IMG/VR virus record: IMGVR_UViG_3300042549_001094
Location: 1-30,299 of that record
DNA from: a virus
Strand: one strand, 5' to 3'
Length of the DNA stretch: 30,299 nt
A program made the position numbers and the translations under genes. Under the pieces are notes generated by a model. It made no database searches. It had not been told where the DNA came from and saw only the letters and a program-made list of their open reading frames with translations. Every line of letters starts with the position of its first letter. The first letter of the stretch is position 1. Of the stretch, positions 5,369 through 30,299 are shown one piece after another.

Positions 5369-5593
5369 TTAAATACCTTTTGCATAGTTGCGTAAAGTTC
5401 TAATATAACCCAGCTTGTCAGTGTGTGCTTGAGTGTTACCCTGCCAAGCCACTACAACTGAGCCTGACTTGCGAACACCTAAAAACCGCCCACGGTTTGA
5501 CTTAGTACCTGCGTAAACCATCTGACCCGCTTGAACGTGCTTGAGCAGGTCAACAGGCACTGCCCAGATGTCAAATATAGATTGATATTTCAT
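5369..5593 (-). CDS. Hypothetical protein, 74 aa
   Basis: The frame opens further upstream, but the ATG at 5593 (MKYQSIFDIWAVP...) has an AAAGGAA ribosome site and is preferred. The sequence reads like a small beta-barrel (QMVYAGTKSNRGRFLGVRKSGSVVVAWQGN), with alternating glycine turns and hydrophobic strands, possibly SH3-like. Function unknown. Second gene of the early leftward operon. Confidence 0.6.
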   Translation of the reverse strand: MKYQSIFDIWAVPVDLLKHVQAGQMVYAGTKSNRGRFLGVRKSGSVVVAWQGNTQAHTDKLGYIRTLRNYAKGI

Positions 5594-5826: not shown

Positions 5827-6065
5827 GTTGTGCTCTCCTTTGGGTTAGTAGGTCAGCTCCTTGCCTTCCTTGTCCTCTATTATCCAGCTGAACCTTACAC
5901 GAAACTTACAAACACAGGTTTTAGACAATTATTTGCAAACTTTAAACCCTTACGTATAAACCCTAATGCCTTTTATGACCTGAGCCATTTAAACGACCTC
6001 AGAGCGTTTATTCCTTGTTTGGTCACTACCCCATCAGACAAAGTTACTAACACCACAACTAATAC

Positions 6066-6162
6066 TTATCCACAATTTTAACTCTTATATAAGACTTTGC
6101 CTGTGTATAACTTATACCCTTACCAGTACCTTATCCACACCTTGTGAGTAACCTGTGTATAA
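6066..6162. other. Cluster of four DnaA boxes, putative replication origin
   Basis: Two exact TTATCCACA boxes lie on the plus strand (6066-6074 and 6131-6139). Two TTATACACA boxes, the sequence of E. coli oriC R2, lie on the minus strand (6102-6110 and 6154-6162). They alternate in strand within 97 bases. An AT-rich stretch and a palindrome TCTTATATAAGA (6083-6094) sit between the first two. The flanking 13 bases CCTGTGTATAACT are also duplicated. Four near-perfect 9-mers in so short a span are unlikely by chance. Use of host DnaA is inferred. Confidence 0.7.
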
Positions 6163-6163
6163 C

Positions 6164-6254
6164 TAATAACCCTAGTACTTTGAAGGTCATTAGTAATAAC
6201 CTTAGGACTTCAGAGGTTATTAGTGAATAGCCTTAGTACTTCAGAGGGTACTAC
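6164..6254. repeat. Three tandem 30/31-bp repeats (iteron-like)
   Basis: Units start at 6164, 6194 and 6224 and share the pattern TAATAACC-TAGnACTT-nGAGG-n-TTAG. Unit 2 also carries exact 8-bp inverted arms TAATAACC and GGTTATTA; unit 1 has one mismatch in them. The array begins directly after the last DnaA box, as iterons or unwinding elements do in plasmid origins. Confidence 0.75.
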
Positions 6255-6277
6255 ATCGACCCTCACTCTACCTCTAG

Positions 6278-6307
6278 TTGACTAACTAGACGTTGGCTAA
6301 CTAGACC
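6278..6307. repeat. 15-bp tandem duplication
   Basis: TTGACTAACTAGACG (6278-6292) is followed at once by TTGGCTAACTAGACC (6293-6307), with two differences. It lies just downstream of the 30-bp repeats and may be part of the same protein-binding array. Confidence 0.65.
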
Positions 6308-6351
6308 TAGATCATAAGTGTACATATGAGTTTAACTCACAAGCCTGTGTT

Positions 6352-6397
6352 GTGACTACAGAGTTCACATTGTGACTGCTCAGTCTATAAAGTGACT
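6352..6397. repeat. GTGACT motif, three copies at exact 20-bp spacing
   Basis: GTGACT begins at 6352, 6372 and 6392. The first two are extended to TGTGACTRC. Twenty bases are about two helical turns, so a protein binding them would sit on one face of the DNA. The motif is the left half of the CRP-like palindrome at 6632, so the same protein could bind both. Confidence 0.55.
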
Positions 6398-6631
6398 GGG
6401 GGGTATGCCTAATTTTATCAGTTTAATATCTAGGGAGCCTCTGAAGCACACAAAAAAGTAAAACTAAAAAGGATTAATTAGGGACAGATGAAGTAACCAT
6501 AAGTACTTGATTTATAAAATAAAAGTAGTGTAGACTACAAAGTATCTAAAATGTAGGTACTTGTGTGTAAATACAGACACTTTGTACACCTTAGCAAGGG
6601 AACTTCAGCGTAGCGTTAAAGTGAACATATA

Positions 6632-6647
6632 TGTGACTACAATCACA
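6632..6647. promoter_or_regulatory. CRP-like operator TGTGA-N6-TCACA
   Basis: TGTGACTACAATCACA matches the core CRP/FNR-family consensus exactly, with A/T flanks. Its centre lies about 80-82 bases upstream of the expected start of the late promoter at 6685-6713, close to a known class I activator position. Whether host CRP or a phage protein binds is not known. Confidence 0.55.
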
Positions 6648-6684
6648 TAAATGTATAAATATATGTGTATACGACAATAAAAGC

Positions 6685-6713
6685 TTGACAAATAGACATA
6701 AGTATGATACAAT
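6685..6713 (+). promoter_or_regulatory. Strong sigma70 promoter for late genes
   Basis: Perfect -35 TTGACA (6685-6690), 17-base spacer, -10 TACAAT (6708-6713), five of six matches. Transcription should begin near A6720, giving a 250-base leader before the small terminase gene. A weaker -10 (TATAAT at 6908-6913) with a poor -35 follows in the leader. Confidence 0.85.
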
Positions 6714-6740
6714 ATTCTTAATAGGAAATAATTGTGTTTA

Positions 6741-6819
6741 CTAAGTAGCCTGACCCCACTACTAAGTTAAGACTAAGTAGGCTGATATGTATAGCCGAAG
6801 GCGTACACCCTAGTAGGGG
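6741..6819 (+). other. Structured 5' leader of the late transcript
   Basis: A 13-base direct repeat with one mismatch (CTAAGTAGCCTGA at 6741, CTAAGTAGGCTGA at 6773) is followed by a hairpin TGTA-TA-GCC-GAA-GGC-G-TACA (6788-6807) and a CCCTA/TAGGG inverted repeat (6808-6818). The AT-rich stretch 6838-6940 follows. It does not match any riboswitch that I recognise. Confidence 0.4.
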
Positions 6820-6969
6820 AACATAGAAGTTAAATACCACTTAAATTAATTATTATAAGTAATTACTTACTAAGTAAATTAATATTATTATGTCTATGTA
6901 ACTTAAGTATAATGTCTTAGTACTCTATAGTACTATATGTAAAAGTCTCCCCTATAGAGGATAAAGACG

Positions 6970-7374
6970 ATGGAAGTAAAAAATGATAGTGTCTCAATGG
7001 TTATGTCGCCTAAACTACGTGGTAAGGGCAGACCTCCAAAGACTGACCTTCAAGCTGTTAAGAATAGAACGAAGAATAAGGTAGGTAGACCTGTAGGTGA
7101 TGCAGGTAGACTTCAAGAGTTCAAGGAAAGATTACTAGCCACAGGTGGTACTAGAATCCTTGATAAGATGATTCAGATAGCCTTGGATGATGAACATCCC
7201 GGACAGATGGCAGCAATTAAGTTAGCAATGGATAGGATATTACCAGCCTCAGTGTTTGATGCAGCTAAGAGTGGTGGTAGTATGCCTCAGATTAGTATTA
7301 ACATTAGTGGTCTTAATAGTCCTATTGTGTCTACCAACGATCAGTCCTTGGACGAAGATGTGATAGACGTATGA
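6970..7374 (+). CDS. Terminase small subunit (probable)
   Basis: A 134-aa basic protein directly upstream of and overlapping the large terminase (ATGA). Two AT-hook-like motifs, GKGRPPK (18-24) and VGRPVG (38-43), suggest DNA contact. A helical part follows (ILDKMIQIALDDEHPGQMAAIKLAMDRILP), typical of a family of small terminase proteins, then a flexible acidic tail. It would recognise phage DNA and load it onto the packaging motor. Ribosome site AGAGGAT lies seven bases before ATG 6970. Assignment rests on position and pattern; no structure-level proof is visible. Confidence 0.75.
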   Translation: MEVKNDSVSMVMSPKLRGKGRPPKTDLQAVKNRTKNKVGRPVGDAGRLQEFKERLLATGGTRILDKMIQIALDDEHPGQMAAIKLAMDRILPASVFDAAKSGGSMPQISINISGLNSPIVSTNDQSLDEDVIDV

Positions 7375-8645
7375 CACAATTAAACTTCCAACTGCTTAAG
7401 TGGCAGCAAAGTGTCTTTAAAGATACTACTCGCTTTAAAGTGGTAGCTGCAGGACGAAGGTGTGGTAAGTCAAGGTTGTCAGCTGTATCGCTACTGATTG
7501 AAGGTTTAAATTGTCCTGAAGGCTCAGCTGTGATGTATATAGCACCTACCCTAGGACAAGCTAGAACGATTATGTGGGACTTACTACATGACTTGGGTAG
7601 ACCAGTCATTAAAGCAAGTCACATCAATAACTTAGAGATAACACTGATTAATGGTAGGAAGATATTAGTACGAGGTGCAGATAACCCAGATAGTCTTCGA
7701 GGTGTGTCTCTAACCTACGTAGTACTTGATGAGTGTGCTTTCGTAAAAGAAGATACGTGGCAGAAGATCATCAGGGCTTCTCTGTCAGACAAGAAGGGTA
7801 GAGCTTTATTCATATCTACTCCCAGTGGAAGAAACTGGTTCTATGACATCTTTAAGTTAGGTAGCTTTGAAGACAAGGCTGACCAGATAGACGAAGAGTG
7901 GAAGTCATGGCACTTTACCACTCAGGACAATGAGACTATTGATCCTAAGGAGATTGAGGCTGCTAAGAGAACATTGAGTTCCTTTGCATTTAAGCAGGAA
8001 TACCTGTCTAGCTTTGATACTTCAGGTGCAGATGTCTTTAAAGAAGAATGGTTCAAGACTGCTAAGGAACCTCAGTATGGAAGCTACATTGTAGCCATTG
8101 ACTTAGCTGGCTTTGAAGAGGTTGGTAAGAATGCAGGTGCATCTAAGAAGAGATTGGATGAGACAGCTATTGCAGTTGTTAAGTTAAAAGATAATGGTGA
8201 TTGGTGGGTAGATAAGATACAGCATGGTAGATGGGACATCAGAGAAACTGCTGTGAACATCTTGAAGATTGTAAGAGACTATCAACCAACAGCTGTAGGT
8301 ATTGAGCGAGGAGCATTGAAGAATGCAGTACTGCCCTACCTAACTGACTTGATGAGGAAGAATAACATCTACTCACACATTCAGGACTTAACTCATGGTA
8401 ACAAGAAGAAAGCTGATAGGGTTGTCTGGAGCTTACAAGGTCGTATGGAACATGGAAGGGTATCCTTCAATGAGTCTGAGGACTGGAGTGAGTTTAAGGA
8501 TCAACTGATTATGTTCCCCACAGCTGGTGTACATGATGACTTGGTGGATGCACTAAGTTACATTGACCAGCTGGCTATTGCTTCCTATAACTCTGATTAT
8601 GAAGAAGATGAGTGGGAAGTTTATGACAAGATTGCAGGTTATTAA
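7371..8645 (+). CDS. terL: Terminase large subunit (packaging ATPase-nuclease)
   Basis: This 424-aa motor pumps DNA into the prohead and cuts it. The ATPase has a Walker A-like AGRRCGKS (27-34), Walker B YVVLDE (116-121) with the catalytic glutamate E121, and the coupling motif STPSG (149-153). The C-terminal RNase H-like nuclease shows an acidic strand IVAIDLAG, the GIERGALKNAVLPYL stretch and a last motif GVHDDLVDALSY with paired aspartates. Length fits the usual 400-600 residues for podovirus TerL. The start at 7371 overlaps the small subunit by four bases, and the gene is followed 11 bases later by the portal gene. Confidence 0.96.
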   Translation: MTQLNFQLLKWQQSVFKDTTRFKVVAAGRRCGKSRLSAVSLLIEGLNCPEGSAVMYIAPTLGQARTIMWDLLHDLGRPVIKASHINNLEITLINGRKILVRGADNPDSLRGVSLTYVVLDECAFVKEDTWQKIIRASLSDKKGRALFISTPSGRNWFYDIFKLGSFEDKADQIDEEWKSWHFTTQDNETIDPKEIEAAKRTLSSFAFKQEYLSSFDTSGADVFKEEWFKTAKEPQYGSYIVAIDLAGFEEVGKNAGASKKRLDETAIAVVKLKDNGDWWVDKIQHGRWDIRETAVNILKIVRDYQPTAVGIERGALKNAVLPYLTDLMRKNNIYSHIQDLTHGNKKKADRVVWSLQGRMEHGRVSFNESEDWSEFKDQLIMFPTAGVHDDLVDALSYIDQLAIASYNSDYEEDEWEVYDKIAGY

Positions 8646-28742: not shown

Positions 28743-30299
28743 TCAGATTTCACAAGCACCAGCTGTACAGGCAAGGGTCTGAGCACCCTCTACGTTGTCA
28801 GTGCCTTCAACCAGTTTGTCCCAGTCAATACCTAGAGGCATACTGGCAACCATTGCATGATACTCAAACTCAGTCATGGACTCATAAGGAGCTTGTCGGT
28901 ATGTTCCACCATCCATAGGTAGGAAACTCACACCTGTAATCTCATCAAAGTTATTCCACACCCATGCACCAACTTCAGGCCACTCATTCTCATTCACTGA
29001 GATAGTTACTGAAGGCTTATGCTCACAGTAGTGTCGCTGGAACAATAGCCACAGCTTTAAATGTTGGATAGCATTCAAGTCTTCACGCAGTACAGCACCC
29101 TTCTCAACTCGCATTGGGAAGCTAAAGATAGTTGTGCTATCAGGTTTCATCACACACAACTCAGATGGAAACCCTTGCTCTTTCAAGAATGCAGTCAGAG
29201 GGTCTTTGTTATCAGACCGAACACGACGAATAAAGTACTGACTGTGCTGAGGGTGGATGCCACTAGCAGTGCCTGTGAGCTGCGATACAGTTCCTTCAGG
29301 CTTAATGGCAGTGATGGCAGCACTACGATTAATACCGATAGCATCAGCAAGCTCAGCGTTAGTGTCAATAGCAACATTCTTTAGTCCTTCCAAGATAGCT
29401 GGTAACTCAGTGTTATCAGGGTCATTGAGCAAAGCATTATCCAAGATACCAGTCATAGACACCCCCAGCAAACGCTCCTCTTCAGTGTTTGTCTGCCACA
29501 CCTTACGCAGGTACGGGAAGTTAGTCATTGTAGATTGGAACGTACCTAGGATAGTAGCTAAGCGAACCTTGTTACGTAGGGTTTCCACAGTATCATCGCT
29601 ACGAACAATAACAGAAGACAGGTTACAGAATTGATAAGGACGCAGAATAATCTCACTGCATGGGTTTGTGCCCCACTCTTTACCCAACTCCCTGCGTCCA
29701 CTCTTAGCTGCTTGAAGTTCACTTGCATAACGATTAAAGATGCCTCGCTCTCCAGAATGTGATTCATAAATGCTTGACCACTCACGCATAAACTTACCTA
29801 CCTCAGGCTTCACTTCGTAGATGGCACTGTTGTTAGCCAAGGCACGTTGACCATTACCATCCCACCAGTTACCAGCTTTAGCGTGAGCCATACGGTCATC
29901 ACCTAAGTCTGACAGAGAGATCATTGCAGATCTACGAACCCCACCGACAACAACTACCTCTCCCACCTTGCAGAGGATGTCATGCGCTTCAAGCGAAGTG
30001 AGCTTACGGCCCGTTGCCCCTTTGAATTTAGCAGTGACGTAGTGAAATAAGGATACAAGGGGTTCAGGCCCTGACGCTCTTCCACCAAAAGTCTTAAGTC
30101 TAGCACCTGCGGGACGCACACCTGATACGTCCCACTTTGGAATCTCACCAGCATATAGCAAGGCAATGACTTGTCGTAAGGCTTTAGCCCATCCCTCTTT
30201 GGAGTCTTTAACATTAATGACAGTGCCACTATTGTACAAATCAACTGGAATCTCAGGTAACTTAGATACATACTTTTGCTCCACACTAAAGCCTACACC
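28743..30299 (-). CDS. nrdJ: Class II (B12-dependent) ribonucleotide reductase, C-terminal part
   Basis: The frame is open to the right edge (it enters as GVGFSVEQKYVSKLP), so the N-terminal part is outside the window; about 518 residues are visible. It reduces ribonucleotides to deoxyribonucleotides with adenosylcobalamin as radical source. Seen: RPAGARLKTFGGRASGPEPL, the radical cysteine in NPCSE (codon at 29658-29660), the PEGTVSQLTGTASGIHP...RRVR segment of the monomeric RTPR-like type, and a C-terminal C-x4-C pair (ACTAGAC) that is re-reduced by thioredoxin-like partners, as in the Lactobacillus leichmannii enzyme. Phage copies supply DNA precursors. Confidence 0.93.
   Translation of the reverse strand, partial: GVGFSVEQKYVSKLPEIPVDLYNSGTVINVKDSKEGWAKALRQVIALLYAGEIPKWDVSGVRPAGARLKTFGGRASGPEPLVSLFHYVTAKFKGATGRKLTSLEAHDILCKVGEVVVVGGVRRSAMISLSDLGDDRMAHAKAGNWWDGNGQRALANNSAIYEVKPEVGKFMREWSSIYESHSGERGIFNRYASELQAAKSGRRELGKEWGTNPCSEIILRPYQFCNLSSVIVRSDDTVETLRNKVRLATILGTFQSTMTNFPYLRKVWQTNTEEERLLGVSMTGILDNALLNDPDNTELPAILEGLKNVAIDTNAELADAIGINRSAAITAIKPEGTVSQLTGTASGIHPQHSQYFIRRVRSDNKDPLTAFLKEQGFPSELCVMKPDSTTIFSFPMRVEKGAVLREDLNAIQHLKLWLLFQRHYCEHKPSVTISVNENEWPEVGAWVWNNFDEITGVSFLPMDGGTYRQAPYESMTEFEYHAMVASMPLGIDWDKLVEGTDNVEGAQTLACTAGACEI

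Follow-up and report, generated by a model that had tools for sequence, protein, structure and literature searches.

A candidate phage replication origin of DnaA boxes around a palindrome, found in dissimilar phages and variable among close relatives

The window analyzed here, the whole 30,299-base stretch of a fragmentary IMG/VR virus record, contains a compact cluster of DnaA boxes around an AT-rich palindrome, which is probably the core of a phage replication origin recognized by host DnaA. Host DnaA would bind inverted boxes whose 3' ends face the central palindrome and help to open the DNA there, after which the phage primase-helicase and polymerase would take over. DnaA binding, melting and origin activity are predictions made from sequence. 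The module may move between phages of freshwater Comamonadaceae, with at least four interchangeable cassettes at its locus. A broader proposal, that a phage-specific minimal origin read by host factors only (DnaA and a putative palindrome-binding protein) circulates among unrelated phages, at a site allelic for at least four frequently exchanged replicator types, is put forward tentatively and with distinctly less confidence.

The DnaA-box cluster of the window

The entire window holds just four TTWTNCACA sites, all of them between positions 6066 and 6162 (Table 1). The first-pass annotation had described two pairs of boxes on alternating strands within 97 bases, and these were recovered at exact positions; the count over the full sequence establishes that the cluster is unique. 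Four boxes are close to the chance expectation of 4.2, and it is their clustering, not their number, that is exceptional. Dinucleotide shuffles of the whole window (n=2,000) never placed more than two boxes within 106 bp, nor did any of 20,000 shuffles restricted to the intergenic region 5831–6969 reach four. Several boxes grouped beyond chance, in a single cluster per genome, are what a DnaA-dependent (oriC-type) origin would present. An assembly error is excluded because L006, a second assembly from a different sample, is 100% identical across 8,936 bp, the cluster included.

The palindrome, the larger module and the swapping of cassettes were all overlooked in the first-pass annotation. Boxes 1 and 2 both direct their 3' ends at the palindrome, and the distal box position, degenerate in the window, reads TTATCCACA or TTGTCCACA in many relatives (counted as nonredundant units). 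The AT-rich palindrome occupies the place expected of an unwinding element; the least stable DNA of the window lies ~760 bp away, outside the module and in the same intergenic region, which counts against the origin reading. This very AT-rich stretch (6847–6900) has a counterpart at a similar distance in several relatives.

Table 1. Coordinates of features in the window
Feature	Position	Strand	Remark
T7-type Toprim/DnaB primase-helicase	804–2432	−	
Segment without similarity in L007	4257–6194		Extent of one cassette swap
p84 gene (phrog_21585, 74 aa)	5369–5593	−	Often downstream of module, several lineages
Stretch homologous to DC31 module	6025–6112	+	75.6% over 88–90 bp, single HSP
Distal box position	6044–6052	+	TTACTAACA, degenerate; 22 bp upstream of box 1
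DnaA box 1	6066–6074	+	TTATCCACA
Palindrome	6081–6096		ACTCTTATATAAGACT; core CTTATATAAG at 6084–6093; between boxes 1 and 2
DnaA box 2	6102–6110	−	TTATACACA
DnaA box 3	6131–6139	+	TTATCCACA
DnaA box 4	6154–6162	−	TTATACACA
30-bp tandem repeat	6164–6247	+	2.8 copies, 83% match; not conserved
Strong sigma-70-like promoter	6685–6713	+	TTGACA-17-TACAAT, TG before second hexamer
Terminase large subunit (terL)	7371–8645	+	Query for relatives and tree

Two further features of the region carry less weight than had been proposed. First, the 30-bp tandem array beside the boxes is real, as annotated, but the notion that boxes and array form one DnaA-plus-iteron unit does not hold: only 3 of the 48 relatives described below carry the array (the window, L006 and L012), and in L012 other repeats stand between it and the boxes. 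Since the array is not conserved, comparison places it outside the functional module, and the conserved tandem iterons of an iteron-type origin are lacking in this set. No Rep-type initiator was recognized among the scanned proteins of the window or of the 38-kb relative G001, where many small ORFs have no assigned function. Second, a GC-skew inflection had been suggested as a check, and a minimum does coincide with the cluster in the window lineage; yet in Limnohabitans phage DC31 and Curvibacter phage P26059A the module lies among co-directional genes and the skew tracks gene direction. GC skew is thus ruled out as independent evidence of an origin.

A module common to dissimilar phages

A BLAST comparison of the window with cultured phages returned one match, to a gene-free stretch of phage DC31. 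The shared module reads TTATCCACA-22-TTRTCCACA, 8–10 bp, the palindrome around CTTATATAAG, ~8 bp, and TGTGNATAA, the palindrome being written generally as A[CG]TCTTATATAAGACT. It is present in more than 100 IMG/VR contigs, and its cultured carriers are DC31 and P26059A. Scanning for the palindrome core together with the right box yielded at least 119 stretches. The left boxes were not specified in this search; in the matches listed (108 nonredundant units) most of them read TTATCCACA or TTGTCCACA, and the recognizable ones differ chiefly at position 3 (A or G) and position 5 (any base), which is where DnaA boxes vary. The module alignment leaves out the row L119. Conversely, a pattern made of the two left boxes and no palindrome matched 18 stretches, all of which continue into the palindrome and right box. 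For most carriers the module is the sole DnaA-box cluster of the genome. A second cluster lies near the module in G010 (964–1002) and G020 (46407–46490).

This architecture bears on the idea that the cluster is a decoy which titrates host DnaA to halt host initiation, in the manner of datA. Four to six near-consensus boxes per genome, present at high copy number, would be expected to sequester DnaA, but a decoy needs neither the conserved spacing and orientation nor the palindrome, and we regard it as improbable. DnaA is also a transcription regulator, and the module of the window lineage lies between divergent operons, so it could be a transcription control region through which host DnaA acts on early or divergent promoters of the phage. 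We consider this quite unlikely. In DC31 (at 20.2 kb) and P26059A (at 72.3 kb) the module occupies a long noncoding gap with co-directional genes on either side, which disfavors a divergent-promoter switch; the strong promoter of the window, which faces the terminase and structural genes, is ~520 bp from the boxes, and no sigma-70-like site in the window overlaps the module.

Comparisons of carrier genomes set the module apart from its surroundings. When G001 and DC31 (76 kb) are aligned in full, they give a single HSP, and that HSP is the module (85 bp, 84.7%, 3e-18). It is likewise the single HSP for G001/P26059A, window/DC31, G025/G001 and G025/DC31, and in such pairs of dissimilar genomes no nucleotide similarity other than the module (85–140 bp, 75–85%) can be detected. 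DC31, P26059A and contigs of 53–84 kb are related to one another, and the carriers comprise about four lineages: the window type, the DC31/P26059A group, G024/G025, and G023. No protein family is common to four or five of G001, DC31, P26059A, G025 and G023, and their replisomes differ. Because these five carriers have no protein in common, the factors that read the module are probably host-encoded, namely DnaA and perhaps a palindrome-binding factor. The primase-helicase is ruled out as a common reader of the palindrome, as the G024/G025 lineage, which has a P22-like portal and PolA, encodes a DUF5906-type primase instead.

A noncoding element that is the sole similarity of unrelated phages points to a constraint imposed by the host. 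Both cultured phages infect Comamonadaceae (Limnohabitans sp. DCL3 for DC31, Curvibacter sp. IMCC26059 for P26059A), the other carriers presumably do so as well, and the module could help to indicate the hosts of freshwater phages that have not been cultured. Phage P26059B, which shares the host strain of P26059A and encodes an RNA polymerase of its own, contains neither palindrome nor cluster, although this is one case. As for where the module came from, a scan of 84,980 species genomes for the composite whose proximal box is TTATNCACA found only one unrelated hairpin; the pattern demanded a TTATN proximal box, and this partial test gives no support to a simple copy of a bacterial oriC. A plasmid source was rejected on finding no plasmid match, and a search of Rfam produced no match.

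Replication genes and known origins

The small early genes of the window run leftward together with the T7-type primase-helicase, and the rightward genes encode the terminase and SU10/P22-like portal and capsid proteins. These are followed by a leftward phage class II (B12-dependent) ribonucleotide reductase (28743–30284) truncated by the window end. The first-pass annotation envisaged a T7-like phage with a T7-type polymerase and primase-helicase and a hybrid mode of initiation. The primase-helicase is indeed there; no DNA or RNA polymerase is seen within the window, and a T7-type PolA is found in relatives such as G001, which also encodes endonuclease I and a 5'-3' exonuclease. A T7-type single-subunit RNA polymerase was found in none of the 20 records searched, which are module carriers or relatives, while the T7 positive control was detected at E=1e-109. 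There is therefore no T7-style initiation with which to hybridize, and a T7-type transcription-primed origin was rejected on the same result. No phage dnaA gene was found. A DnaA-read module would be a candidate start for phages that combine a T7-type replisome with no phage RNA polymerase, and it is short, testable and available in phages with cultured hosts.

The module resembles several known systems in part. Like bacterial oriC of the E. coli type, it has clustered DnaA boxes of consensus TTATCCACA; the 3' end of the E. coli R1 box faces the DUE, and the module boxes face the AT-rich palindrome from both sides. Unlike oriC, it is compact (~90–140 bp) and its boxes are inverted around a palindrome. 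The window shares DnaA boxes beside repeats with iteron-containing plasmid and P1-type origins, but its repeats are not conserved and a recognizable Rep-type initiator is missing from the proteins scanned. The T7 primary origin is approached through the primase-helicase, PolA and endonuclease I of relatives, and differs in its dependence on a phage RNA polymerase, found in none of the 20 records. DnaA-box clusters in phages are themselves of a known kind: a DnaA-box origin has been predicted by Ori-Finder in Pseudomonas phage PseuGes_254 (PMC11512268). That phage and the Lactococcus 949-like phages, which have direct boxes, are similar in being virulent phages with DnaA-box clusters; however, these are single-genome predictions or plain clusters, and the accounts consulted mention neither a palindrome module spanning lineages nor an exchange of cassettes. 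Among open-licence papers none was found on a palindrome module shared across lineages or on replicator swapping, and the papers on DC31 and P26059A do not mention DnaA.

Cassette types upstream of terL

A search with terL identified 425 relatives, 48 of which include sufficient upstream sequence. The palindrome, with or without boxes, is present in 33, direct boxes in 11, no boxes in three, and an intermediate arrangement in one. Looking for the same arrangement in related phages had been proposed with the original annotation, and it bore out: most relatives keep the cluster at the same locus, 1.1–1.7 kb upstream of terL, and unrelated phages have it too. Four cassettes can be distinguished. 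Cassette A consists of boxes and palindrome, B of direct DnaA boxes without the palindrome, C of the palindrome with TCTTATG repeats, and D of 21-bp GGCAAATATTGCC repeats; C and D have no DnaA boxes. The conservation expected of a DnaA-dependent origin is thus found in most relatives, and the fact that close relatives manage without DnaA boxes counts against the origin reading. A class D example, in which the 21-bp repeats bear the palindrome GGCAAATATTGCC, lies ~1.14–1.20 kb upstream of terL in L048, and others are present in L033, L042 and L074.

The class C cassettes invite an alternative in which the palindrome is the essential element, where a host factor binds to initiate replication or to regulate early genes, the boxes being accessory. 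These cassettes retain and multiply GTCTTATATAAGAC and TCTTATG half-sites, and across carriers the palindrome, whose core formed part of the search pattern, hardly changes, in contrast to the individual boxes. Against this, class B has direct DnaA boxes and no palindrome, and the analysis turned up no factor that would bind the palindrome, a point that also weighs on the origin reading; this explanation appears unlikely. We continue to favor an origin read by host DnaA.

Cassette type changes at least 19 times on the terL tree, compared with a mean of 21.6 for random labels. L050 and L051 have identical terL but carry B and A, respectively. L007 is mostly 90–96% identical to the window elsewhere and has a DnaA-box-free class C cassette at the locus. 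Neighboring genes track the type: p84 occurs with A only (12/17), and B and D are accompanied by a 66-aa gene. The labels would also become scattered through general recombination between the locus and terL; the discreteness of the alternatives is nevertheless notable. The exchange of replicators among nearly identical phages raises the question of incompatibility or competition during co-infection.

Of 79 p84 loci, 54 have the palindrome and at least two boxes, with the module 178–1724 bp upstream of p84. The gene is missing from many module carriers and is present in other phages that lack the module, which rules it out as an obligate partner; on this distribution it is best described as a companion of the module and not a requirement. 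Its predicted model (pLDDT 90) has no fold match in the PDB. A GP88-family gene (PF17338; L007:5265–6134) lies beside the locus in each of the seven cassettes of class C and in a few others. Fur-box-like sequences (AATGCGAATGATTCTCATT), absent from the window, are located 0.9–1.2 kb upstream of terL in L025, L034, L051 and L052.
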